Below, piece by piece: positions 1,035 through 31,088 of a stretch of DNA of 55,189 bases. The notes under the pieces are model-generated. The model did not search any database and was not told where the DNA came from. It saw nothing but the letters and a program-made list of their open reading frames with translations. Every line of letters begins with the position of its first letter. The first letter of the stretch is position 1. The stretch spans positions 1-55,189 of the forward strand of contig NZ_LGIA01000208.1 of NCBI RefSeq assembly GCF_001270965.1. Direction: 5' to 3'. The position numbers and the translations under genes were made by a program. This DNA is from Sunxiuqinia dokdonensis. Lineage in GTDB: Bacteria; Bacteroidota; Bacteroidia; Bacteroidales; Prolixibacteraceae.

Positions 1035-2651
1035 ATGAAAAATATTATCATAACAACAGCACTCCTTCTCCTAAGCATCAGCGCTTACCAGAACGGGGTG
1101 GACAAAACCAATGAAGAAACGATAACGATTTTACAAACAGCCGATATTCACGCTTACCTGAATCCACACGATGAGCTTTTTGTTGAAAACGGCCAGATTG
1201 TTTTCAGAAAGGCAGGTGGCATGGCCCAGATTAAAACCCTGACGGACAGCATCAGACGGTTGAATCCGGCAGGGACGCTGCTTATTGATGGGGGAGACCT
1301 GATTCAGGGGAGCGGATCGAGCGTGCGGTCGCAGGGGAAAATCTTTCCTCCAATTGTTCAGGCCATGAACTACGACCTGCTGATCCCTGGAAACTGGGAA
1401 GTGGTTTACGGCAAGCAGGTAATGATGGACCTCCTGAACAACTATCAAACCAAGGTCATTGTGGCCAATATGTATGACGAAGAAACCGGAAAGAACCTAT
1501 TTCCTCCCTACTGGATTACGGAAAAGAAAGGCGTCAGAATCGGATTCATGGCCTACAACGACCCGGAAATCCCGATTCGTCAAAATCCGGGCTACAGCGA
1601 AGGCATGCGGTTTACGCCCGTGGAGGAAAACCTGAAAGCCCTCATTAGCCATCTTAAAACCGAAGAAAAAGTGGACCTCCTGTTTTTGGTGGCTCACCTG
1701 GGCATTTCCAAACAGCTGATGCTGGCCAACAATCCGGCCGTTGAAGGTGTGGACTTTATCTTTGGAAACGATACCCACGAACGCATCCGGAAGCCCATTG
1801 AAGGAAAGTATGCCAAAGTGGTGGAGCCCGGTGCTTTCGGCTCTTTTGTTGGCCGGCTGGACCTGAAGGTCAAGAACAACAAGCTGGTGGATTACAGCTA
1901 CGAACTTCTGGATGTTTCGCCCGAAAAGTACCCCGCAAACCTCGAAGTACAACAAATCATTGATCGGGCAACGGCTCCGTACCAGGAGGAAATGCAGACG
2001 GTGCTGGGTTACACCTCGGCGCCGATGTACCGCTATTTGGTTGTTGAAAATCCGATGGACAATTTTATCACCGATGCCCTGCTCTGGAAAACAGGAGCAG
2101 ATTTTGCCATGTCGAACGGCTTTCGTTTTGGGGTTCCCATTATTCCCGGTGCAGACGGGAAAGCGCCTATCACCAAGGCCGACCTGTGGCGCATGTTGCC
2201 CGTGAATGAACACATGAAGATTGGGAAAGTGACCGGCCGGCAAATCAAAAGCTGGCTGGAACAGGAAATTCACAATGTGTTTGCAGCCAATTACCAGGAG
2301 CGTTTTGGTGGCTGGCTGGTTCGCTTTTCGGGAATGACCCTGCGTTTTAATAGTTCGGAAGGAAAAGGAAACCGCATCGAGTCGATCACCATCCAGGGCC
2401 AACCGCTGGAGCTGGACAAAACCTATACCATGGCTTCGTGTAACCGAACCGGAGAGCCGCTGTCGACCATGTGCCGGCTAAAGAATACGCAGGATGCAGA
2501 AATTCAGGATTATACCATGCACGAAGCCATCGAAGACTATCTGAAAGCAAAAGGCACCATTCATCCAGGACTCGATGGCAGGGCCATGGCCACTGATCTG
2601 GGAACCCAGGCCTTTTCACAAATGAAAGAAGGCAAGTACCAATTTCAATGA
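1035..2651 (+). CDS. SoxB-like 5'-nucleotidase-family metallophosphoesterase
   Basis: This 538-residue exported protein has a signal peptide (about residues 1-18), an N-terminal calcineurin-like metallophosphoesterase domain and a C-terminal 5'-nucleotidase domain. Metal motifs visible are DIH (37-39), DGGD (85-88), GNWE (119-122), AHLG (220-223) and NDTHE (245-249). The tryptophan in GNWE, where 5'-nucleotidases have GNHE, and C-terminal stretches such as NGFRFG and ERFGGWLVRF recall SoxB, the thiosulfohydrolase that releases sulfate from protein-bound cysteine S-thiosulfonate. Asp246 replaces the first His of the usual HTH. It is the third gene of the DoxX/DsrE operon. No SoxYZ, SoxAX or SoxCD genes are nearby, so a nucleotidase role remains possible. 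Confidence 0.75.
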   Translation: MKNIIITTALLLLSISAYQNGVDKTNEETITILQTADIHAYLNPHDELFVENGQIVFRKAGGMAQIKTLTDSIRRLNPAGTLLIDGGDLIQGSGSSVRSQGKIFPPIVQAMNYDLLIPGNWEVVYGKQVMMDLLNNYQTKVIVANMYDEETGKNLFPPYWITEKKGVRIGFMAYNDPEIPIRQNPGYSEGMRFTPVEENLKALISHLKTEEKVDLLFLVAHLGISKQLMLANNPAVEGVDFIFGNDTHERIRKPIEGKYAKVVEPGAFGSFVGRLDLKVKNNKLVDYSYELLDVSPEKYPANLEVQQIIDRATAPYQEEMQTVLGYTSAPMYRYLVVENPMDNFITDALLWKTGADFAMSNGFRFGVPIIPGADGKAPITKADLWRMLPVNEHMKIGKVTGRQIKSWLEQEIHNVFAANYQERFGGWLVRFSGMTLRFNSSEGKGNRIESITIQGQPLELDKTYTMASCNRTGEPLSTMCRLKNTQDAEIQDYTMHEAIEDYLKAKGTIHPGLDGRAMATDLGTQAFSQMKEGKYQFQ

Positions 2652-2685
2652 TGCAGGCTCTCGCCCGCAGCACTGGACTACAAAC

Positions 2686-2719
2686 AAAAAATCCCCGACT
2701 GACTGGCGGGGATTTTTTT
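2686..2719. terminator. bidirectional intrinsic terminator
   Basis: ATCCCCG (2691-2697) pairs with CGGGGAT (2707-2713), with an A run before and a T run after the stem. It sits between two convergent genes, so it can end transcription of both the SoxB-like operon and pfkA. Confidence 0.85.
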
Positions 2720-2741
2720 GTGTTTGGTGATGGGCTATAAA

Positions 2742-3785
2742 TTACATCAAATCATATTCATCGCCAAACGAGACGCCCATTTTCCGGGCTTTCAAAATCA
2801 GCGAGTTGTCTGGTTCAACCAAGCTAAGCTTGCCACCAACTTCAGCCAGCGGAACGGTTGTCAGTTGGTTGGCCCGCATGGCTACCATGCTCCCAAAATT
2901 ACCCTCGGCAATACATTGTGCGGCAAAGGAGCCGTAGTGGGTGGCCAAAATACGGTCCATCGGGCTGGGGCTGCCACCACGTTGCACATAACCCAAGACG
3001 GTTTCGCGGGTTTCAATGCCGGTGTAAGTGCTGATCGCCTCGCCCACATGTGCTGCAGCCGACACTTTTTTGGGATGGTCAATGCCCTCGGCAACCACCA
3101 CAATGGAATAGGGCTTGTTACTTTGGTAGCGCTGTTCAATCTTTTTGCACACTGAGCGGATGTTATAGGGAACTTCAGGAATCAGAATGATGTCGCCGCC
3201 TCCGGCCATTCCGGCGTACAGGGCAATCCAACCGGCATGATGTCCCATCACCTCAATAATCATGACCCGCTGGTGCGAGTTGGCTGTGGTATGCAGCCGG
3301 TCGATGGCTTCAGTGGCAATCTGCACCGCCGAGTCGAAGCCGAACGTGACGTCGGTTCCCCACACGTCATTGTCAATGGTTTTGGGAATCCCCACCACAT
3401 TGAGCCCTTCTTCCTGCAACCGGCACGCTGTTTTCATCGTGCCATTTCCTCCGATACAAACCAACGCATCCAAGCCAAGCTCCTGGTAGTTTTGCTTAAT
3501 GAGTTCCGGCTTGTCGTTCTCGCCTTCCTTAACCACTTTATAGGGTTTTTCCCTTGAAGTGCCCAGGATTGTTCCTCCAAGTGTTAAAATCCCGGAAAGG
3601 TGAGATTCCTTCAAATCAACATAGTCTTTCTCAATCAGGCCCGAAAATCCCGCAGTGAATCCAATGACCTCCATGCCATAATCGACCATGGCGGTTTTAC
3701 CTACTCCCCTGATGGCTGCATTCAGTCCGGGACAATCGCCGCCGGCTGTTAAAATCCCAATTCGCTTTGGTTTCTGAGTACTCAT
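2742..3785 (-). CDS. pfkA: 6-phosphofructokinase
   Basis: PFK phosphorylates fructose 6-phosphate to the 1,6-bisphosphate in glycolysis, in the cytoplasm. This 347-residue protein shows the nucleotide-binding GGDCPGLNAAIRG (residues 15-27), GGNGT (112-116) and the catalytic PKTIDND (134-140), where Asp138 is the expected base. The two residues that separate phosphoryl donors in this family are Gly115 (ATP type) and Lys135 (seen in PPi enzymes and in group III ATP enzymes such as the Streptomyces one). The mixed pattern predicts an ATP-dependent group III enzyme, possibly without the allosteric control of E. coli PfkA. The open frame extends to a GTG at 3809, but the ATG at 3785 starts right before the conserved core. 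Confidence 0.93.
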   Translation of the reverse strand: MSTQKPKRIGILTAGGDCPGLNAAIRGVGKTAMVDYGMEVIGFTAGFSGLIEKDYVDLKESHLSGILTLGGTILGTSREKPYKVVKEGENDKPELIKQNYQELGLDALVCIGGNGTMKTACRLQEEGLNVVGIPKTIDNDVWGTDVTFGFDSAVQIATEAIDRLHTTANSHQRVMIIEVMGHHAGWIALYAGMAGGGDIILIPEVPYNIRSVCKKIEQRYQSNKPYSIVVVAEGIDHPKKVSAAAHVGEAISTYTGIETRETVLGYVQRGGSPSPMDRILATHYGSFAAQCIAEGNFGSMVAMRANQLTTVPLAEVGGKLSLVEPDNSLILKARKMGVSFGDEYDLM

Positions 3786-4009
3786 ATCATTAATTTTTGA
3801 AATTGCCACGATGTGTGACTCGTTTTAAATATCAATCTAAATTAAGAAAAGAATTCCGGTTTTTTCAGAAAAAAACCATGCTGAAGAATATTCGGCGTGT
3901 CTGATTCCATTGAACCACGTGAGCTTCAAGTTTATTGAAAAAATTCTGATTTTTTTGAAAATGCGAGGTGTGGCGGGTTTGCCGCACTGGAAATCCCCGA
4001 GTTTTTTCT

Positions 4010-4017
4010 TAATTTCG
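4010..4017 (+). promoter_or_regulatory. possible -7 box for DUF1080 lipoprotein gene
   Basis: TAATTTCG differs at one position from the Bacteroidota -7 consensus TAnnTTTG and lies 56 bases before the start codon at 4074. No -33 TTTG lies at the normal spacing, so this is weak. Confidence 0.35.
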
Positions 4018-4073
4018 TACCATCATTTCGAGTTCATTTTAATTTAAATCGATAACCTAAAATTTGATTACCT

Positions 4074-4868
4074 ATGAGACGAGTTTATTTGCTACTGTGT
4101 GCCTCGGTTTTACTTTTTGCAACTGCCTGTAACTCCGGCACAAAAAAAGCCGAAGAAACAACGGAAGAAAAGTCAGCCCAGGTTGAAGAACCTGCTGCTG
4201 ACAATACCTTAACAGCTGCTGAAAAAGAAGCCGGTTGGGTGCTTTTGTTTGACGGAGAAACCCCTGAAGGCTGGCGTGGGGTAAACAAAGACCACTTCCC
4301 AACGGGATGGCAAGTTGTTGACGGAACCCTGATGTGTAAAGGTTCGGGCGAAGGTGAAGCCGGTGCTGACGATGGCGGTGACATTTTGTATGACAAGAAG
4401 TTCAGAAACTTTACCTTGAAGCTGGATTGGAAAATTTCAGAAGGCGGAAACTCAGGTATTTTCTACCTGGGCGAAGAAGTTGAAGACTGGCCAATTTACA
4501 AAACGGCTCCTGAAATGCAGGTGCTCGACAACGAGCGCCACCCCGATGCTTTGTTGGGAAAAGATGGTAACCGCATGGCCGGATCGTTGTACGACCTGAT
4601 TCCTGCCAAACCACAAAACGCCAAACCAGCCGGAGAGTGGAACAGCGTAGAAATTATTTGCTACCAAGGCACTGTTGTTCACAAGCAAAATGGTGAAGTG
4701 GTTGTTGAATACCACTTGTGGACGGACGACTGGAACGCCCTGGTTGCCGACAGTAAATTTCCTGGCTTGAATGAAGATTGGGCCAATGTTCCTAAAGAAG
4801 GTTTTATCGCCCTGCAAGACCACGGGAATGATGTTTGGTTCAAAAACATCAAGATTAAAGAGATGTAA
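4074..4868 (+). CDS. DUF1080 (3-keto-disaccharide hydrolase-like) lipoprotein
   Basis: A 264-residue lipoprotein: the N-terminus runs to a lipobox FATAC with Cys19, followed by an acidic, Ala/Glu-rich linker (about 22-55) and then a DUF1080 domain with the typical opening WVLLFDGETPEGWRG. The domain adopts a concanavalin-like jelly-roll fold, and some members hydrolyse 3-keto-glycosides in glycan breakdown. It is expected to be anchored in the outer membrane or periplasm. It is monocistronic, with its own terminator just downstream and a 288-base gap to the divergent pfkA. A second DUF1080 protein lies at 23311-24051. The substrate is unknown. Confidence 0.85.
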   Translation: MRRVYLLLCASVLLFATACNSGTKKAEETTEEKSAQVEEPAADNTLTAAEKEAGWVLLFDGETPEGWRGVNKDHFPTGWQVVDGTLMCKGSGEGEAGADDGGDILYDKKFRNFTLKLDWKISEGGNSGIFYLGEEVEDWPIYKTAPEMQVLDNERHPDALLGKDGNRMAGSLYDLIPAKPQNAKPAGEWNSVEIICYQGTVVHKQNGEVVVEYHLWTDDWNALVADSKFPGLNEDWANVPKEGFIALQDHGNDVWFKNIKIKEM

Positions 4869-4891
4869 TATCCGTCTTTATCAGAGATAAT

Positions 4892-4926
4892 GAAAGGGTT
4901 GCTATTGCAGCCCTTTCTTGTTTTTC
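4892..4926 (+). terminator. intrinsic terminator after DUF1080 gene
   Basis: GAAAGGGTTGC (4892-4902) pairs with GCAGCCCTTTC (4907-4917) through ten Watson-Crick pairs and one G-T pair, with a four-base loop followed by a T-rich run. Confidence 0.8.
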
Positions 4927-5009
4927 ATACTTTCATCAAAAAGTTTTTGGGGCCATGAAATACCGGTCTGCGAGAGCGGCAAAGGACACTTAATCTTACA
5001 GTAATAGAA

Positions 5010-5696
5010 ATGAAAACCATTGGACTTGTGGGAGGAACCGGCTGGGTTTCGACCATGGAATACTATCGCCTGATTAATCTCCTGATGAATGAAAAGAAGG
5101 GTGGCTTGCATGCCGCACGCATCATCATTTATTCACTGAATTTTGGTGAGATAGAAGCGATGCAGCAGAAAAACGACAAACTTTCCATCATGCTGACATT
5201 GAAGCACGCGGCCCTCAAGCTTGAAGCCGCCGGAGCTGACTGTGTGATGCTTGGCGCCAATACGATGCACCAATTTGCCGACGATGTGCAGCAGGCTTTA
5301 CGGGTTCCGCTGCTCCATATTGCTGAAGCCACGGCTAGCACAATCAGTCAAGCCGGCCTGAGAAAAGTGGGGTTGCTTGGAACAAAGTATACGATGGAAT
5401 TGGATTTTTACAAGGAGAAACTTGCAGAACAGTCGGTTGATACGCTTATCCCGGAAGACAATGACCGGACATTTATTCAACATTGTATCATGCATGAATT
5501 GGTGCTCAACCAGTTTTTACCTGAAAGCAAAGCCCGATTTCTGAGCATCATCCAACAACTGCAAGCGCGAGGCGCCGAAGGCATTATTTTGGGTTGCACG
5601 GAAATCCCTTTGCTTATTGAGCAAACCGATTGTGACCTTCCGCTGTTCAATACAACAGAAATCCATGCCCGCGCGGCTGTTGAATTTAGCTATTAA
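5010..5696 (+). CDS. aspartate/glutamate racemase family protein, atypical active site
   Basis: A 228-residue cytoplasmic protein of the Asp/Glu/hydantoin racemase family, recognised by the opening MKTIGLVGGTGWVSTMEYY and the C-terminal GIILGCTEIPLL with Cys196. These enzymes interconvert amino-acid enantiomers with two opposed acid/base residues, usually two cysteines. At the first position this protein has Ala83 (LGANTMH); E. coli YgeA has Thr there and is still an L-Asp/Glu racemase. With Ala the second acid/base is missing, so one-sided chemistry, another substrate or loss of racemase activity are all possible. The dlgD gene follows 11 bases after its stop, so the two are probably co-transcribed. 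Confidence 0.8.
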   Translation: MKTIGLVGGTGWVSTMEYYRLINLLMNEKKGGLHAARIIIYSLNFGEIEAMQQKNDKLSIMLTLKHAALKLEAAGADCVMLGANTMHQFADDVQQALRVPLLHIAEATASTISQAGLRKVGLLGTKYTMELDFYKEKLAEQSVDTLIPEDNDRTFIQHCIMHELVLNQFLPESKARFLSIIQQLQARGAEGIILGCTEIPLLIEQTDCDLPLFNTTEIHARAAVEFSY

Positions 5697-5707
5697 ATCC
5701 AAAACCG

Positions 5708-6727
5708 ATGCCCGACAAAAATACGACCCATGTACCGTTTGAAACAATGAAGCAGCGCTTTTACGACGTGCTGACCCAGTTGAAATTCCCAAATGATAAA
5801 GCGAAAACATGCGCCGCTATTTTTGCCGGCAACAGTTTGGATGGGGTGTATTCGCATGGCGTCAATCGCTTTCCGCGCTTTGTCGACTACGTCAAAAAAG
5901 GTTACATCCACCCAAGGGCCAACCCAAAACGGACCGCTCAAATTGGGGTGATCGAGCAATGGGACGGCCAATTGGCTCCCGGCCCGAGCAATGCCGTGCA
6001 GGCTACCGGGCGGGCTATGGAGCTGGCGAGCGAAAATGGGCTGGGCCTGGTCGCTCTGGCCAATACCAATCACTGGATGCGCGGTGGGGCTTATGGCTGG
6101 CAATGCGCCCAAGAAGGTTTCGCTTTTATTGGCTGGACCAACACCATTGCCAATTTACCGGCTTGGGGAGCTCAAACATGTAAACTAGGAAACAACCCCT
6201 TGGTGTTTGCCATTCCGTACCAGGATGAGGCGATTGTGCTGGACATGGCCATGTCGCAATTCTCGTATGGGAAAATGGAAGATCTGCAAAAAAAAGGCAA
6301 AGAACTGCCCGTGCCCGGTGGATTTGACAGCCGGAACCAGATGAGCACCAATCCCGGTGAGATTTTGCAGTCGGGGCGCCCACTGCCCATTGGTTTCTGG
6401 AAAGGCGCCGGCCTGTCGCTGTTGCTCGATTTGCTGGCAACCCTGCTTTCCGCAGGACTTTCAACTTCGGCGCTGAGCAGGCAGAACAAGGCTGAATATG
6501 GCGTGTCGCAGGTTTTTATTGCCATCGACTTAAAGCAGCTTGACAACTTCCCGGCCATGGAACAAAACATTCAGGCCGTACTCGATGATTTCCAGTCGGC
6601 TGAGAAAGTGAGCCCGGAAAGCTCTTTACGCTATCCCGGACAACGCGTTTTGATTACCCGCGAAATCAATAAAATTAAAGGCATACCGGTTGACAGCGAC
6701 CTTTGGCAGCAAATATTGAAGCTTTAA
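5708..6727 (+). CDS. dlgD: 2,3-diketo-L-gulonate reductase (3-dehydro-L-gulonate 2-dehydrogenase)
   Basis: A 339-residue member of the malate/L-lactate dehydrogenase-like (Ldh2/YlbC) family. It matches what I recall of E. coli DlgD/YiaK along its whole length: SGVYSHGVNRFPRF-like (here residues 51-64), NHWMRGGAYGWQ (about 121-132), NPLVFAIP, SQFSYGKMED and YGVSQVFIAI are all kept. DlgD reduces 2,3-diketo-L-gulonate to 3-keto-L-gulonate with NADH in L-ascorbate/L-gulonate use. No transporter, UlaD or AraD-type gene of that pathway lies nearby, so in this organism the substrate could be a related keto-acid. It is the second gene of the racemase operon. Confidence 0.85.
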   Translation: MPDKNTTHVPFETMKQRFYDVLTQLKFPNDKAKTCAAIFAGNSLDGVYSHGVNRFPRFVDYVKKGYIHPRANPKRTAQIGVIEQWDGQLAPGPSNAVQATGRAMELASENGLGLVALANTNHWMRGGAYGWQCAQEGFAFIGWTNTIANLPAWGAQTCKLGNNPLVFAIPYQDEAIVLDMAMSQFSYGKMEDLQKKGKELPVPGGFDSRNQMSTNPGEILQSGRPLPIGFWKGAGLSLLLDLLATLLSAGLSTSALSRQNKAEYGVSQVFIAIDLKQLDNFPAMEQNIQAVLDDFQSAEKVSPESSLRYPGQRVLITREINKIKGIPVDSDLWQQILKL

Positions 6728-6740
6728 TATGGACTTCGGG

Positions 6741-8030
6741 CTATTCGTGTTGCTGAATAATTGTGCCTATCATGCGAAGCAATGCGGTGTGTGTATCAAT
6801 AAAATTAAAAATCGCCTGCAATTCTTGTAAGGCCGCATTCTGGTAAATCAGCTGCACGTCGCGAAAGTTGAAGGAATTGATGGACCCGTTTTCAAACTTT
6901 TCCTTGGCAATCTGAAAATTCAGGCGGGCAGCTTGCAGGTTTTCGTTAGCCACGCTCAGCAACTCTTTCCGAACCAGGTAAAATTCATACAAGTTTTGCA
7001 GCTTGTTATCCAGGTCGTGCTGCATTTGCTCCAGGGCAACCAACCCGCTTTCTTCTTCCAGCCTGGCAATCTGCAGCGCCCTTTTGCGATTCCCTCCGCT
7101 AAACAGGTTGTAGCTTAAGGTGAAATTGCCATACATGTTGGTTGCATCAGCCCAGGTCATACCGCCATTTTCAAAGTCATTGCCGGTGCGCGAGCGCGTT
7201 GCTCCGCCGGCAAACGAAAGTGTTGGATAGTACGAACTTTTGGCCGCCAGGATGGCATTCTCCAGCAAATTCTGGCTGATGTATTGGTTCTTTAAACTCT
7301 TGTTGTTGGCCATCATTTGCTGCTGCAAATCAGCCAGGCGGTAATCAATTGGAATGGCTTCAAAGGAGTCATTCAGTTCGTAAGAGGGGGCACTTTTGTC
7401 GGCCATCAAAAAAGCCAAATCGCGCAAAGCGTTTTTGTACGCTACTTCCTGCGACAAGTAGCTGGTTTTATCGGTGAGGTAAGCGTTTTGCGCTTGCAGC
7501 ACCTCAAAAGTGACTGCCGAGCCAAAGTCTTTCCGTTGCTCCATTCTGCTGAAACGGTCTTCGGAAAGCAACATCACTTCTTTCAACACGTTGAGCCGTT
7601 CTTTTTCCAGAAGTGCCGAGTAATAAGCCAATACAATCGACTGAATGGTTCCTTCAACCATGATGGCCGTGTTCTGCTTCGACAGTTCTTCCAGCTCGGC
7701 AAACCGTTGTTTGCTGATGTTGACGGCAAAACCATCAAACAAGGTCCAGTTCAGGTTAAGCCCGGCAGACAAACGGGATTGAACGTAGTCCTGGTTGTCG
7801 TTATTGTTGATCGCATTGTCAGCTCCCAGCGAAATACCAATATAAGGGTAGCGTCCAGCTTCACCCCAGCTGTTTCTAATTTCGGCAATTTGCTGATCTT
7901 GTTTTACCAAGGTGATGTCGTAGTTGTTTTCGAGCGCTTTGGTGATGGCGTCTTCCAGGCTCAGTACCGTTTGAGCTTGTGCCACAACCGTTACCAGCAA
8001 ACAGACCACCACTATTTTTATTCGTTTCAT
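6741..8030 (-). CDS. TolC family outer-membrane efflux channel
   Basis: A 429-residue outer-membrane channel of the TolC/OprM type: signal peptide at residues 1-20 ending VAQAQ, then two repeats of long amphipathic coiled-coil helices. The start at 8030 is chosen because it gives a clean signal peptide; the frame is open to an ATG at 8051, adding seven residues. It is the last gene of the minus-strand operon adaptor - RND pump - channel, 32 bases after the pump gene, so the three should form one tripartite pump spanning both membranes. The drug or metabolite exported cannot be read from the sequence. Confidence 0.88.
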   Translation of the reverse strand: MKRIKIVVVCLLVTVVAQAQTVLSLEDAITKALENNYDITLVKQDQQIAEIRNSWGEAGRYPYIGISLGADNAINNNDNQDYVQSRLSAGLNLNWTLFDGFAVNISKQRFAELEELSKQNTAIMVEGTIQSIVLAYYSALLEKERLNVLKEVMLLSEDRFSRMEQRKDFGSAVTFEVLQAQNAYLTDKTSYLSQEVAYKNALRDLAFLMADKSAPSYELNDSFEAIPIDYRLADLQQQMMANNKSLKNQYISQNLLENAILAAKSSYYPTLSFAGGATRSRTGNDFENGGMTWADATNMYGNFTLSYNLFSGGNRKRALQIARLEEESGLVALEQMQHDLDNKLQNLYEFYLVRKELLSVANENLQAARLNFQIAKEKFENGSINSFNFRDVQLIYQNAALQELQAIFNFIDTHTALLRMIGTIIQQHE

Positions 8031-22963: not shown

Positions 22964-22982
22964 TTGAAATTTTGAAAAAATC

Positions 22983-23208
22983 GGTGGCCAGCTTTCTTGT
23001 CTTACACCAGATTCATGAAAATCTGCGGCTAGCTTTCTTGTTTTGCACCAAATTCATGAAAATCTGCCGCCAACTTTCTTGTCTTGCACCAAATTCATCA
23101 AAATCTGCGGCCAGTTTTCTTGTCTTAAACCAAATTCATCAAAATCTGCGGCCAGCTTTCTTGTTTTCTACCTGATTCATCAAAATCTGCGGCCAGCTTT
23201 CTTGTTTT
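22983..23208. repeat. 41-bp tandem repeat array, about 5.5 units
   Basis: The hexamer ATTCAT recurs at 23011, 23052, 23093, 23134 and 23175, exactly 41 bases apart each time. The shared unit reads roughly ATTCATSAAAATCTGCGGCC, then AGCTTTCTTGTYTTRCACCA plus one base; a partial unit precedes the first full one. Units differ at several positions, so the array is old. Since 41 is not a multiple of three and two early units hold an in-frame TGA, it is not a coding repeat. It lies between a terminator and the end of a minus-strand gene. Function unknown. Confidence 0.9.
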
Positions 23209-26994: not shown

Positions 26995-27023
26995 GATGTT
27001 ACTTTCTTACTAAAAGATGTTAC
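26995..27023. promoter_or_regulatory. candidate operator: direct repeat GATGTTAC
   Basis: GATGTTAC occurs at 26995-27002 and again at 27016-27023, 21 bases apart (two helical turns), between the -7 box and the start codon of a ribbon-helix-helix regulator. This is where an autorepressor would bind. It does not resemble the E. coli NikR operator GTATGA-N16-TCATAC. Confidence 0.4.
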
Positions 27024-27024
27024 G

Positions 27025-27426
27025 ATGACAGTCTCCCGCTTTGGTGTTTCCCTCGAAAAAGATTTGCTTGATGCATTGGATCAGTATGTGCAGGACAATC
27101 GTTTTTCCAATCGGTCGCAGGCCATCCGGCAGTTGATCAGCCGCAATATTGTTGAACAAAAGTGGCAGTGTAATAACAATGTGGCCGGCTCGGTTACCTT
27201 GGTGTATGATCCAAGCCGGCGGGAAATCCTGAATCAACTGGCTGATGTCCTGGAAAACTTCCACGACGAAATCCTATCAACACAGCGATTGATTCTCGAT
27301 AAATCAAAACATATGGAGATTGTCGCCATCAAAGGTGTTGCCAGCCGGCTGACTGAATTGGCCGATCAATTGATAAGCATTAAAGGCATGCAACACGGCA
27401 AGCTGACCATGAGCCGGGCCGATTAA
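27025..27426 (+). CDS. NikR-family ribbon-helix-helix regulator with altered metal site
   Basis: A 133-residue NikR homologue: an N-terminal ribbon-helix-helix DNA-binding domain (RFGVSLEKDLLDALD, SNRSQAIRQLI) and a C-terminal ACT-like domain (VAGSVTLVYD, MEIVAIKG, GMQHGKLT). E. coli NikR binds Ni2+ through His76, His87, His89 and Cys95. Aligned by eye, these places hold Glu/Leu-region residues, Arg88, Ile90 and His96 here; only the neighbouring His80-Asp81 is kept. High-affinity square-planar nickel binding therefore looks lost. As first gene before larE, larC, larB and a transporter it probably regulates the nickel-pincer cofactor operon, perhaps sensing another metal or ligand (inference). 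Confidence 0.8.
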   Translation: MTVSRFGVSLEKDLLDALDQYVQDNRFSNRSQAIRQLISRNIVEQKWQCNNNVAGSVTLVYDPSRREILNQLADVLENFHDEILSTQRLILDKSKHMEIVAIKGVASRLTELADQLISIKGMQHGKLTMSRAD

Positions 27427-27495
27427 TTGTTGAGCGCGGCATTTTCATTTTATGTGGAGATGCTTCGAACCCGTAATCAAAAAATAGAGTCAAAG

Positions 27496-28332
27496 ATGAA
27501 AAAATTAAGTCCGCAACTTCAAGATAAACTCAACCAGCTGGAAGCTTGGTACACCGAACGCCAAGGCTCGATCGTTGCCTTTTCCGGAGGAATCGACTCC
27601 ACCTTGGTGCTGTTTTTAGCCCGGAAATTTCAGGGGAAGGAGAATGCCATCGGTGTTATCTCCAATTCGGAAAGCCTGAAGACCAAAGATTTTCAGCTGG
27701 CTAAAACCTTCTGCAAGGATTTTGACATCCAACTGGAAATCATTAAAACCGAAGAGCTGACGGACCTGCGGTACAACCAAAACCCCGAAAACCGCTGTTA
27801 TTTTTGCAAGGAACACCTGTTTCACGATTTGCAGGATATCAAGGAAAAGTACCCTGATTTTGATGTGTTGAGTGGTACCAACCAGGATGATCTGGCGGAT
27901 TATCGCCCGGGATTGCAGGCCGCTGCCAAATACAAAATTCTGGCGCCCATGGCCGCATGCAAGCTGAGCAAGGAGGAGCTCCGCCAGATTGCCAAACATT
28001 TCGATTTACCCAACTGGGACAAACCGGCCAGTCCGTGCCTCAGCTCCCGGATTCCATACAACCACCACATTACCCGCGAGAAGCTGCAACAGGTTGAAGA
28101 TGCTGAAAACATCCTCAACGACTTGGGATTTATCGATGTTCGTGTCCGCCACTACGGCAGCTACGGACAGGTGGAAGTGCAAAAAACCGAACTCGAGAAA
28201 TTGTTTTCCATCGAAAATGAAGTGATAGAAAAAATTAAGGCGGTTGGTTTTGAAGATGTTCGGATCGACCGCGAAGGATTGGTTTCGGGAAAACTAAACC
28301 GGGTATTGAAAGTTGCCAATCAACAGAAGTAA
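27496..28332 (+). CDS. larE: ATP-dependent sulfur transferase LarE (nickel-pincer cofactor)
   Basis: LarE adenylates the carboxylates of the LarB product and installs sulfur, forming the thiocarboxylates that hold nickel in the nickel-pincer nucleotide. This 278-residue protein has the PP-loop FSGGIDSTL (residues 29-37) and the conserved PASPCLSSRIPY (177-188) with Cys181, equivalent to the sacrificial cysteine of Lactiplantibacillus LarE. It also has Cys101 and Cys104 (RCYFCK); such three-cysteine LarE proteins bind a [4Fe-4S] cluster and need not sacrifice a cysteine. The frame extends to a TTG at 27427, but the ATG at 27496 gives the normal family N-terminus. It lies 69 bases after the regulator. 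Confidence 0.93.
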   Translation: MKKLSPQLQDKLNQLEAWYTERQGSIVAFSGGIDSTLVLFLARKFQGKENAIGVISNSESLKTKDFQLAKTFCKDFDIQLEIIKTEELTDLRYNQNPENRCYFCKEHLFHDLQDIKEKYPDFDVLSGTNQDDLADYRPGLQAAAKYKILAPMAACKLSKEELRQIAKHFDLPNWDKPASPCLSSRIPYNHHITREKLQQVEDAENILNDLGFIDVRVRHYGSYGQVEVQKTELEKLFSIENEVIEKIKAVGFEDVRIDREGLVSGKLNRVLKVANQQK

Positions 28333-28370
28333 CGGGTGAAGAAATAAGGCAGAAATTGATGCGGGGCACT

Positions 28371-28412
28371 AGATGCTGGATACTGGATACTGGATACTGG
28401 ATACTGGATGAC
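28371..28412. repeat. heptamer tandem repeat, consensus RGATRCT
   Basis: AGATGCT is followed by four GGATACT units and a decayed GGATGAC, all in 7-base register, between larE and larC. The same heptamer family occurs in the opposite orientation at 45018-45052. Directly after it, ACTGCGACTG is repeated at 28411-28420 and 28424-28433. Confidence 0.9.
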
Positions 28413-28469
28413 TGCGACTGGCCACTGCGACTGAATACTGAAAACAGGATATTTGATAATAAAACTGAC

Positions 28470-29639
28470 ATGAAAATATTGTATTACGATTGTTTTGCGG
28501 GAATCAGCGGCGACATGAACCTGGGTGCCCTGATTGATTTGGGCGTGGATGCCGACTACCTGAAAACGGAATTGGAAAAACTGAATATTGAAGGTTTTCA
28601 CCTCGAAATAAAAACCGACCAGCGGCGCGGCATTACCGGCACCAAAGCCGAAGTGGTGATTGAAAACCAGGAAAACGAAAAACACCGTCACCTGCGGCAT
28701 GTGGAGGAGATTGTGAACAACAGCAGCTTGCCCGAGCAGGTTAAAGTCAACGCCTTAAAAATTTTCGACCTGATTGCGGAAGCCGAAGCCAAAGTCCACA
28801 ATATTTCCAAGCAAGCGGTGCACTTTCATGAGGTTGGTGCACTGGATTCCATTGCCGACATTGTGGGTGCGGCCATCTGTCTGGATTACCTGAAGGTGGA
28901 CAAGGTGATGTCCTCGTCCATCCAACTTGGCGGGGGAACAGTGAAATGCGCACACGGCATCATGCCAGTACCTGCACCCGCTACCGCCGAAATCGTCAAA
29001 AATATTCCTGTGAAAGCCGGGCTGGTGAACCATGAAGCTACAACCCCAACCGGAGCCGCCATTTTGGTGGCCACGGTTGATGAGTTCACCGATCAAATCA
29101 CGCAGCCCATCACTAAAACAGCGTACGGCATTGGCAACCGCGACAGCGAAGTGCCCAACGTTTTGCGCGTGCATTTGCTTGAAGATGTGGCAGCTGTAAA
29201 CGATGTGGATACCGAAGAAGCCATCCTGTTGGAAAGTAATATTGATGATATGAACCCGGAGCATTACGACTTCGTTTTGGAACAACTTTTTTTGGCCGGA
29301 GCCAGCGATGCCTGGCTGGTGCCGATCATCATGAAAAAGTCGCGCCCGGCGATCCAGCTTTCGGTCTTGTGTAAGGCCGAATTGGCCGACAAACTAAAAG
29401 CCATCATTTTTACAAACAGCACCTCCATTGGCATTCGGGAATACCGCATTGGGAAAAACATGCTGCGCCGCGAAGAAATCACTGTGGAGACTGATTACGG
29501 ACCGGTGCGCGTCAAAAAAAGTTACTACGATGGTAAGCTTGTCCGCTCGAAACCCGAGTTTGACGACTGTAAAAAGCTGGCCGAAGCCAACGGTGTAAGT
29601 CTTTCAGAAATTGAAGATACAATTCGTAAACAGCTGTAA
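28470..29639 (+). CDS. larC: nickel insertion protein LarC (nickel-pincer cofactor)
   Basis: LarC is the CTP-dependent cyclometallase that inserts nickel into the bis-thiocarboxylated pincer, forming the Ni-C bond. This 389-residue single-frame protein begins with the family signature ILYYDCFAGISGDMNLGAL (residues 3-21). It has a His-containing stretch near 72-78 (KHRHLRH), VHFHEVGALDSIADIVGA (about 117-134), and the C-terminal LLESNIDDMNPEHY and SYYDGKLVRSKPEFDD. In L. plantarum larC is split by a programmed frameshift; here it is one frame. The upstream open stretch to 28356 translates the heptamer repeat and was excluded. LarB follows 2 bases after its stop. Confidence 0.93.
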   Translation: MKILYYDCFAGISGDMNLGALIDLGVDADYLKTELEKLNIEGFHLEIKTDQRRGITGTKAEVVIENQENEKHRHLRHVEEIVNNSSLPEQVKVNALKIFDLIAEAEAKVHNISKQAVHFHEVGALDSIADIVGAAICLDYLKVDKVMSSSIQLGGGTVKCAHGIMPVPAPATAEIVKNIPVKAGLVNHEATTPTGAAILVATVDEFTDQITQPITKTAYGIGNRDSEVPNVLRVHLLEDVAAVNDVDTEEAILLESNIDDMNPEHYDFVLEQLFLAGASDAWLVPIIMKKSRPAIQLSVLCKAELADKLKAIIFTNSTSIGIREYRIGKNMLRREEITVETDYGPVRVKKSYYDGKLVRSKPEFDDCKKLAEANGVSLSEIEDTIRKQL

Positions 29640-29641
29640 AC

Positions 29642-30379
29642 ATGAGTCCAAAAGAAATTCTGGAAAAATATAAGAATGGGGAAATGACCCTCACTGAAGC
29701 GCTGGAACACATCCCTGACCGCGGTATTGAAGAGATGGGTTTTGCTACGATCGACACCGATCGTCACAAACGAACGGGGTTGCCTGAGGTGATTTACTCA
29801 TCCGGGAAAACCGTGGAGCAAGTCAGCCAAATTGCTGAGCGCATGCATCTAAAGGGGATTGATGTGCTGGCCACCCGCGCGACGCCCGAAATGTTTGAAG
29901 CGGTAAAAGAACGTATTCCCGGCGCCCAATACAATGCCCTGGCCAAAACGATTATCTACAAACAAAATACTCAGCCAAGCACAGAAGGTTATATCGTGGT
30001 TGTGGCTGCGGGAACTTCGGATATGCCGGTGGCTGAAGAAGCTGTTGAAACCGCCCAATTTCTGGGTAACCGGGTAGAGAAAGTTTATGACGTTGGAGTT
30101 GCCGGCATTCACCGGTTGTTTCACCGGCTGGAGCTGATTCGTAATGCCAGGGTCATTATTGTGGTGGCCGGAATGGAAGGTGCCCTGGCCAGCGTGGTCG
30201 GCGGATTGGTTGATAAACCGGTGATTGGCGTTCCAACCAGCATTGGCTATGGGGCCAACTTTCAGGGTCTTTCGGCCCTGCTTTCCATGCTGAACAGCTG
30301 TGCCAGCGGTGTTAGCGTGGTTAATATCGACAATGGATTTGGAGCTGCCTGTCAGGCTTCGTTGATTAATAAACTTTAA
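29642..30379 (+). CDS. larB: LarB, NaAD carboxylase/hydrolase (nickel-pincer cofactor)
   Basis: LarB carboxylates the pyridinium ring of nicotinic acid adenine dinucleotide and hydrolyses it, the first step of nickel-pincer nucleotide synthesis. This 245-residue protein has the PurE-like C-terminal domain: VVAAGTSDMPVAEEA (about 121-135), YDVGVAGIHRL (149-159), and GVPTSIGYGANFQGL. Cys220 in LNSCASG matches the place of the catalytic cysteine described for L. plantarum LarB, and NIDNGFGAA follows. It depends on NaAD, an intermediate after the nadB/nadC products encoded in the same window. It lies 2 bases after larC and 10 before the transporter gene. Confidence 0.93.
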   Translation: MSPKEILEKYKNGEMTLTEALEHIPDRGIEEMGFATIDTDRHKRTGLPEVIYSSGKTVEQVSQIAERMHLKGIDVLATRATPEMFEAVKERIPGAQYNALAKTIIYKQNTQPSTEGYIVVVAAGTSDMPVAEEAVETAQFLGNRVEKVYDVGVAGIHRLFHRLELIRNARVIIVVAGMEGALASVVGGLVDKPVIGVPTSIGYGANFQGLSALLSMLNSCASGVSVVNIDNGFGAACQASLINKL

Positions 30380-30389
30380 GAACAGGAAA

Positions 30390-31088
30390 ATGAACGAATT
30401 GTATCTACTCTCACTTTCAGCCGCATCACTCGGATTTATCCACACCATCCTGGGACCGGATCATTACCTGCCGTTTATTGTGTTGAGCAAAGCCCGGCAA
30501 TGGTCGAGCAACAAAACCATGTGGATTACCTTCATTTCCGGCGTGGGACATGTGGGAAGCTCGGTGCTCATTGGCTTTTTGGGTATCGCACTCGGCATCA
30601 GCCTCAACAAGCTGGAATCGATTGAAGCCATCCGCGGCGAGCTGGTGGGCTGGCTTTTGTTCGCCTTTGGCGTGGCCTACACCCTGTACGGTGTGTACAA
30701 ATACGTAAAAAGTATTGACCACAAGCACTTGCCGGCATTTCTGCTTCCCAAAAAAATTCGTGACCTGCATCACTTGCCAACCGACGAAAAAGAAGGCGAC
30801 AACACAAAACTAACTCCATGGATCCTATTTCTGATTTTTGTATTTGGCCCATGCGAAGTGCTGATTCCTGTGCTGATTTTTCCTGCCTACCAACACAGCA
30901 CAGCCGGCATGCTGATGATTGCCCTGATTTTTGGGCTGGCTACCATCGGAACTATGCTGCTTGCCGTGTACCTCGGGCACAAAGGAAGTTCTCTGGTGCG
31001 CTTCAAAAAACACGAACGTTATTTGCACCTCATCGCCGGACTGGTGATTCTGGTTAGTGGAGCCGGCATTGTTTTTATGGGCTGGTAG
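30390..31088 (+). CDS. UreH/NiCoT-like membrane protein, probable nickel transporter
   Basis: A 232-residue protein with about six membrane spans. The first carries HTILGPDH (His18, Asp24, His25), a close variant of the HxxxxDH metal-selective motif of the NiCoT nickel/cobalt permeases; UreH-type proteins of this fold appear beside nickel enzymes. A cytoplasmic loop rich in His and charged residues (SIDHKHLPAF, LHHLPTDEKE; about 108-140) could bind metal. It is the last gene of the lar operon, 10 bases after larB, so nickel supply for LarC is the natural role. Sulfite-exporter-like (TauE/SafE) annotation is the main alternative. Confidence 0.72.
   Translation: MNELYLLSLSAASLGFIHTILGPDHYLPFIVLSKARQWSSNKTMWITFISGVGHVGSSVLIGFLGIALGISLNKLESIEAIRGELVGWLLFAFGVAYTLYGVYKYVKSIDHKHLPAFLLPKKIRDLHHLPTDEKEGDNTKLTPWILFLIFVFGPCEVLIPVLIFPAYQHSTAGMLMIALIFGLATIGTMLLAVYLGHKGSSLVRFKKHERYLHLIAGLVILVSGAGIVFMGW

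Follow-up and report, generated by a model that had tools for sequence, protein, structure and literature searches.

A probable self-regulated operon for the nickel-pincer nucleotide in Sunxiuqinia dokdonensis and its probable client, a putative hexonate epimerase encoded on another contig

The lar operon of Lactiplantibacillus plantarum has its own regulator, a nickel transporter and a split reading of LarC. We analysed a 55,189-nucleotide stretch of the genome of Sunxiuqinia dokdonensis (Bacteroidota; contig NZ_LGIA01000208.1, positions 1 to 55,189; hereafter the window) in which homologues of LarB, LarC and LarE, the biosynthesis set for the nickel-pincer nucleotide (NPN), are likewise grouped with a regulator and a putative transporter. 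The assembly to which the window belongs, G000, comprises 4.96 Mb in 225 contigs with a completeness of 99.97%. Unlike the L. plantarum operon, this locus has no adjoining larA, its regulator is NikR-like, its membrane protein belongs to another family and its LarC is encoded in one frame; its LarE also has CXXC-C cysteines, which the L. plantarum LarE lacks (PMC9283937). Sets of larB, larE and larC without larA have been described in about 15% of genomes (PMC11796402); the window resembles them in having no adjoining larA and differs in that G000 encodes a LarA-family protein elsewhere. That protein resembles GntE2 (LarAH20) of Thermotoga maritima, which has been identified by assay as an NPN-dependent D-gluconate 2-epimerase and which, like GntE1, interconverts D-mannonate and D-gluconate with NPN (PMC7583248): both are LarA-family proteins encoded amid uronate genes and have the same catalytic and NPN-binding residues. 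However, the G000 protein belongs to a separate group, LarAH18, and in G000 a 6-phosphogluconate dehydrogenase gene (gnd) is clustered with it and the NPN genes lie in a separate operon. The regulator shares its ribbon-helix-helix and NikR_C domains with the NikR proteins of E. coli, H. pylori and P. horikoshii (PMC7055735), from which it differs in the loss of three nickel-ligand histidines. The predicted half-sites before its gene resemble GTGTTAC, reported for delta-proteobacterial NikR (PMC545781), although they are inverted there and in tandem in the window.

We consider it probable that positions 26996-31088 constitute a self-regulated NPN operon and that its NPN serves the LarAH18 protein of G000, most likely in the conversion of D-mannonate to D-gluconate. 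NPN would be built by LarB, LarE and LarC along the known route, with nickel probably imported by the membrane protein. Repression of the operon, through two half-sites before its own gene, is the probable role of the NikR-like protein. NPN would be loaded into the LarAH18 encoded at G000:C27:4581-5870, in a uronate-catabolism cluster, where the neighbouring mannonate oxidoreductase would convert fructuronate to D-mannonate and LarAH18 would convert D-mannonate to D-gluconate, bypassing mannonate dehydratase. The D-gluconate would then be phosphorylated and passed to 6-phosphogluconate dehydrogenase.

The five genes of the operon (nikR-like, larE, larC, larB and the membrane-protein gene) are all open and follow one another in this order on the plus strand at 27025-31088 (Table 1), as a preliminary description of this DNA had reported. 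The gaps between them measure 69 bases (nikR-larE), 137 bases (larE-larC), 2 bases (larC-larB) and 10 bases (larB to the membrane-protein gene), and the genes are presumably co-transcribed; a scan for promoters and terminators yielded sites no commoner than in shuffled sequences. The claim of a complete LarB, LarC and LarE set also held, since all three genes are unbroken and exceed curated cut-offs: LarE scored 280.7 bits against TIGR00268 (cut-off 150), LarC 215 bits against LarC1 (cut-off 90) and 151 bits against LarC2 (cut-off 50), and LarB 306 bits against NF033503 (cut-off 175). A broken larC is ruled out by its one open frame. For larE we chose the ATG at 27496 as the start codon, while the list of open reading frames (ORFs) has the TTG at 27427. 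The P-loop and the three cysteines place this LarE with the [4Fe-4S] type, the CXXC-C arrangement having been tied to a [4Fe-4S] cluster by a study of T. maritima (PMC9283937). Taken together, the gene set suggests that the operon produces NPN. The NikR-like protein scored 121.9 bits against NF003381 (cut-off 105) and 73.7 bits against NikR_C (cut-off 22), whereas with four further NikR models it stayed below the cut-off.

Table 1. Features of the NPN operon and its upstream region (window coordinates).
Feature	Position	Strand	Remarks
Predicted operator, two direct ATGTTAC half-sites with a 14-base gap	26996..27023	+	29 to 2 bases before nikR start codon
nikR-like, ribbon-helix-helix regulator with NikR_C	27025..27426	+	Profile matches; canonical nickel ligands replaced
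larE, ATP-dependent sulfur transferase	27496..28332	+	TIGR00268; SGGIDS P-loop; C101, C104, C181
7-base tandem repeat ACTGGAT, 6.6 copies	28368..28414		larE-larC gap
larC, nickel insertion protein	28470..29639	+	LarC1 and LarC2, single unbroken frame
larB, carboxylase/hydrolase of NPN pathway	29642..30379	+	NF033503
Membrane protein, Pfam DsbD_2 family	30390..31088	+	HTxxGPDHY and GPCE motifs; nickel permease is a guess

To identify the client, we searched G000 for LarA-family proteins, as the preliminary description had proposed. There was a single Lar_N match, on contig C27, and searches with the C27 protein itself and with a 12-row LarA profile both returned only this protein. It belongs to NF052594, "nickel-dependent putative hexonate epimerase" (LarAH18), with 661 bits against a cut-off of 500, and is homologous to T. 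maritima GntE2 (4nar, E 8.7e-37). Group 18 has been hypothesised to be a hexonate epimerase (PMC7583248). When residue equivalence to GntE2 was read from the 4nar alignment and the residue list in that article, the catalytic and NPN-binding residues D41, R44, H74, H151, K161, H177 and K282 were identical in all 20 aligned LarAH18 proteins. The same is true of E152, V153 and A346-H347, which we take to be the equivalents of the E, V, A and H residues usual in GntE enzymes (PMC11770544). LarAH18 is a putative hexonate 2-epimerase. Of four further genomes that have all or part of the operon, three (G247, G248 and G249) carry LarAH18. The copies of G247 (84% identity to the G000 protein) and G248 (83%) form one clade with the G000 copy (support 100/100), and the G249 copy falls outside.

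The preliminary description had rightly noted that larA is not beside the operon: no window ORF of at least 150 aa matched a LarA profile. That the absence is odd is not supported by comparison. LarB exceeded its cut-off in 16 of 247 sampled genomes of the phylum, and Lar_N was present in 25 (both in 10, LarB alone in 6 and Lar_N alone in 15). Judged by coordinates, no LarB place among the 16 adjoined a Lar_N match; those of G128 and G200 are near contig ends. Among the 10 genomes with both, only G120 had them on one contig, about 240 kb apart, and some of the matches are on short contigs (G200, with LarB at 681 of 9,788). We also searched ORFs of at least 150 aa inside the fetched flanks of 96 sequences, namely 15 LarB regions of the phylum sample, the best 80 of at least 80 loci from a LarB alignment scan of genome_contigs, and the window. 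A LarA-profile neighbour was found in four (two Liquorilactobacillus, one Paenibacillus and one Peptococcaceae) and in none from Bacteroidota. Thus, larB without an adjoining larA is normal in this phylum. The suggestion that the client is encoded elsewhere stands in the form of a LarA homologue with a likely different substrate; the alternative then offered, a client of unknown kind, is not supported, since a likely one has been found.

The arrangement of the operon recurs in other Bacteroidota. Among the best 80 LarB loci, the identical order nikR-larE-larC-larB-permease was found in L100 (Paludibacteraceae) and L101 (Paludibacter jiangxiensis). L099 (Prolixibacteraceae) has larC-larB-permease on a contig that starts inside larC. 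In L103 (Tannerellaceae) the order is larE-larC-larB-permease, and the nikR-like gene lies about 2.6 kb off on the opposite strand. None of the other window ORFs (at least 100 aa) matched L099, L100, L101 or L103 at E 1e-8. Because the order recurs in two loci, and partly in two more, without other shared ORFs, the grouping is more than chance. A further locus, L123 (Syntrophaceae), has larC-larE-larB beside a relative of the membrane protein and a canonical NikR.

The membrane protein scored 36.5 bits against Pfam DsbD_2 (cut-off 24.9) and matched no NCBIfam family at E 0.001; the HTxxGPDHY and GPCE motifs are common to six relatives. An AlphaFold model of moderate confidence built from those six sequences (pLDDT 73.7) gave no significant fold relative in the PDB (best E 0.26), and the sole PDB sequence match at E 1 was a ribosomal protein (E 0.46), surely by chance. 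DsbD_2 was thus the one family matched, with no hit to a nickel transporter family or fold. Nickel transport by this protein, which the preliminary description had called a UreH/NiCoT-like permease and a likely nickel supply, is a reasonable guess from gene association.

Several side observations were made at these loci. The 24-base pattern of the ACTGGAT repeat occurs in three of 212 fetched loci, all three covering window positions 28368-28414, and a second, intergenic tandem repeat of 41 bases (5.6 copies) lies at 22977-23205 of the window. TonB receptors adjoin the operon in two loci, divergently in L100 and on the downstream side in L103. In L100, positions 1177-7339, divergent from nikR, encode a TonB receptor, a nucleoside-hydrolase/FmdE fusion, a metallophosphoesterase and a class-I glutamine amidotransferase, and by eye L101 holds relatives of some of these genes. 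Seven loci (L064, L067-L070, L073 and L074) have a solitary LarB: tblastn with window queries at E 1e-3 found no larC or larE in the fetched 9.8 to 19.5 kb, and LarC and LarE are encoded elsewhere in those genomes.

The regulator was examined at the positions of the known nickel site. In E. coli NikR, nickel is bound by His87, His89 and Cys95 together with His76 of the neighbouring subunit (PMC7055735). The window protein has E, R, I and H at the positions of His76, His87, His89 and Cys95, and thus lacks the canonical site in spite of its two NikR domains. The three ligand histidines are gone in all four operon-associated NikR-like proteins (window, L100, L101 and L103), and the ligand cysteine is retained in the latter three and not in the window. 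The full ligand set is retained in the NikRs of L123 and L124 and, by eye, in those of G014 and G039. A second NikR_C match was not found in G000. The preliminary description had seen in this NikR-family regulator a likely switch; that it is a usual nickel sensor is not supported, because the canonical ligands are gone.

There is nevertheless a serious, if somewhat less than even, chance that the NikR-like protein still senses nickel via different ligands, and that the operon is plainly nickel-regulated. Candidates for such ligands include Cys49 and the residue at column 96, which is His in the window and Cys in the three other copies. The NikR_C fold lies above its cut-off, the cysteine of a WQCN motif is present in all four operon-associated proteins and missing from two canonical NikRs, the half-sites resemble those of delta-proteobacterial NikR, and the TonB receptors in L100 and L103 fit metal uptake; against this stands the replacement of every ligand histidine in all four proteins. 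Repression by the NikR-like protein, whatever it senses, would act at the predicted operator. R5, G7 and S9, which presumably contact DNA, are invariant across six aligned NikR-type proteins, and an Arg-Gly-Ser sheet has reportedly been described in Geobacter NikR.

The site ATGTTAC-N14-ATGTTAC just before the nikR-like start codon is the only match in the window at one mismatch or fewer, compared with 0.05 expected, and such a match arose in 5 of 100 shuffles. At the same place L101 has GTGTTAC-N14-GTATTAC, an exact match to the pattern, and L100 has GTGTTAC-N14-GTGGCAC, with two mismatches, 86 bases upstream. No clear match was seen by eye upstream of larE in L103, whose genome has no exact match. 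Summed over the first three loci, the operator score at a gap of 14 was 37 of 42, which none of 2000 shuffle sets reached even with the best of 13 gaps. For the window, L100 and L101, the tandem scores at this gap were 12, 12 and 13 of 14, and the inverted scores 9, 12 and 12. An inverted NikR palindrome upstream of nikR is thus unsupported in the window (9 versus 12), though it may hold in L100 and L101. The pattern and a reversed control matched 5 versus 3 times in G247, once versus never in G248 and in G249, and neither in G250; the match in G249 is at nikR and that in G248 is not. A wider regulon was sought from the operator pattern, and nothing convincing emerged.

The neighbours of LarAH18 point to a function in the catabolism of uronates, sugar acids of plants. 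In G000 the LarAH18 gene on C27 is accompanied by genes for D-mannonate oxidoreductase (373 bits, cut-off 281), 6-phosphogluconate dehydrogenase (Gnd; 766 bits, cut-off 427) and a PfkB kinase. A UxaE fragment, a LacI regulator and Gfo/Idh and PdxB-like proteins are also encoded there. We surveyed 21 LarAH loci, 20 of LarAH18 and one of a more distant second copy in G248, for ORF clusters anywhere in the fetched regions, annotating representatives only. SDR proteins were found at 18 loci, Gnd at 17, UxaE and PfkB at 13 each and uronate isomerase (UxaC) at 10; a 28% identity threshold may have mixed paralogues in these counts, contig ends truncate some of the regions, and ORF picking missed L080's own LarAH. 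The mannonate dehydratase UxuA was not found in 16 of the 20 LarAH18 genomes tested, including G000. Because of the genes in the LarAH18 cluster and because UxuA was not found, the simplest reading would be a route from uronate via fructuronate, mannonate, gluconate and 6-phosphogluconate to ribulose 5-phosphate, with LarAH18 acting in the direction of gluconate and a kinase step on gluconate. A gluconate route was proposed for T. maritima by Rodionova 2012, as quoted in PMC6978723. It is unlikely, in our estimation, that LarAH18 acts instead on another or a phosphorylated hexonate, for example converting 6-phosphomannonate to 6-phosphogluconate. Extracts of Lactobacillus suebicus phosphorylate mannonate first and epimerise it afterwards (PMC6978723), and a LarAH19 enzyme has a high KM for D-mannonate, its authors suspecting a different natural substrate (PMC7583248). 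However, GntE2 and LarAH15 use free D-mannonate, and the GntE-type E-V and A-H residues are also present in LarAH18.

A number of observations count against a self-regulated NPN operon that serves LarAH18 in the gluconate route. First, regarding the operon, the nearest larE-larC-larB set in the phylum sample (G243) has no nikR or permease beside it, and these two are therefore non-essential parts. Second, regarding the operator, L100 has four pattern matches at two mismatches or fewer versus 3.2 expected, so its site alone is no better than chance. G000 has two exact matches versus four for the reversed control; no exact match lies near the LarAH18 gene, and the other one, on C161, is downstream of both neighbours and beside no recognised nickel gene; by eye the neighbours encode a catalase-peroxidase and a glycoside hydrolase. 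The pattern and its spacing were, moreover, partly derived from these same sequences. Owing to the chance level in L100, the commoner control in G000 and this derivation, the operator is support and not proof. Third, regarding the client, the LarAH18 gene is on a different contig from the operon and unlinked to it, the available assay tables of PMC7583248 and PMC11770544 contain no group 18 member, and G250 (Tannerellaceae; 2.0 Mb, completeness unstated), which has larE-larC-larB-permease, gave no LarA match. Fourth, regarding the pathway, UxaE in G000 is a fragment near a contig end; the UxaE-like gene at L002:35-868, close to the end of its contig, covers profile positions 79-325 of 475 only, which may reflect the contig end, a frame error or decay. 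The C27 sugar kinase matched its models only under their cut-offs and could be a 2-keto-3-deoxygluconate kinase, and UxuA is present in four of the 20 LarAH18 genomes (G039, G051, G188 and, in two pieces, G255). Finally, many LarAH18 genomes are without NPN genes, and strict pairing of operon and client is thereby weakened.

This last point concerns a considerable number of genomes. All 15 phylum-sample genomes with Lar_N and without LarB were also without a LarC match and without LarE over its cut-off. The phylum sample has 30 Lar_N matches, of which 14, in 14 genomes, are LarAH18: these are at least 58% identical to the G000 copy over nearly their full length, and the other 16 are at most 32% identical or gave no match. 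Nine of the 14 LarAH18 genomes (G031, G035, G051, G062, G093, G124, G176, G188 and G224, of which G124 and G188 are single-contig assemblies) have no LarC match and no LarB or LarE over the cut-offs. Their LarAH18 proteins share 64-69% identity with the G000 copy and have the NPN residues intact; the remaining six of the 15 genomes have other LarA types, and the residue check covered LarAH18 only. In the family of G188 (57 genomes, each at least 90% complete, overlapping the phylum sample and searched for NF052594 and LarC), NF052594 was over its cut-off in 27 genomes, LarC was found in 3 and both in 2, so that 25 of the 27 LarAH18 genomes were without LarC; three further genomes with short NF052594 fragments below the cut-off were left uncounted. 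On the LarAH18 tree, the presence and absence of NPN genes takes three changes, at least two of them by well-supported branches. Within the part of the literature that was covered, nothing was found on LarA-type enzymes without NPN genes, and nothing on point on NPN uptake or salvage, on NikR with lar genes or on ligand-less NikR; we claim no novelty on this account. One explanation, which we hold to be distinctly improbable, is that NPN is shared in the phylum, with many bacteria keeping a fully equipped NPN-dependent hexonate epimerase and taking NPN or a late precursor from makers such as S. dokdonensis, and that the NikR-derived regulator of the operon now responds to NPN or one of its precursors in place of free nickel.

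We also rate as improbable a client of NPN that does not belong to the LarA family, as suggested for larB, larC and larE genomes without larA, with LarAH18 incidental. In its favour, six of the 16 LarB genomes of the phylum sample (G119, G066, G128, G141, G145 and G172) have LarB, LarC and LarE and no match to Lar_N or the 12-row LarA profile, larB, larE and larC occur without larA in the 15% of genomes cited above, and LarAH18 is present in many genomes without NPN genes. Against it, G000 has a LarA-family protein in which the known cofactor residues are conserved, for which reason such a client was dropped as first choice, and LarAH18 occurs in three of the four further genomes that have all or part of the operon.

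The missing client thus has a probable and ordinary explanation, and an NPN operon that seemingly had none gains a concrete candidate client and a likely pathway. Two findings are nevertheless surprising and pose puzzles. The regulator next to this nickel-cofactor operon is NikR-like yet has lost the NikR nickel site, and many LarAH18 genomes have no NPN genes: enzymes bearing the known NPN residues occur in near-complete genomes where searches for LarB, LarC and LarE came up empty. If the second finding holds, then either NPN moves between cells, or there is another route of synthesis, or these enzymes are independent of NPN, and each of these outcomes would alter assumptions about NPN.

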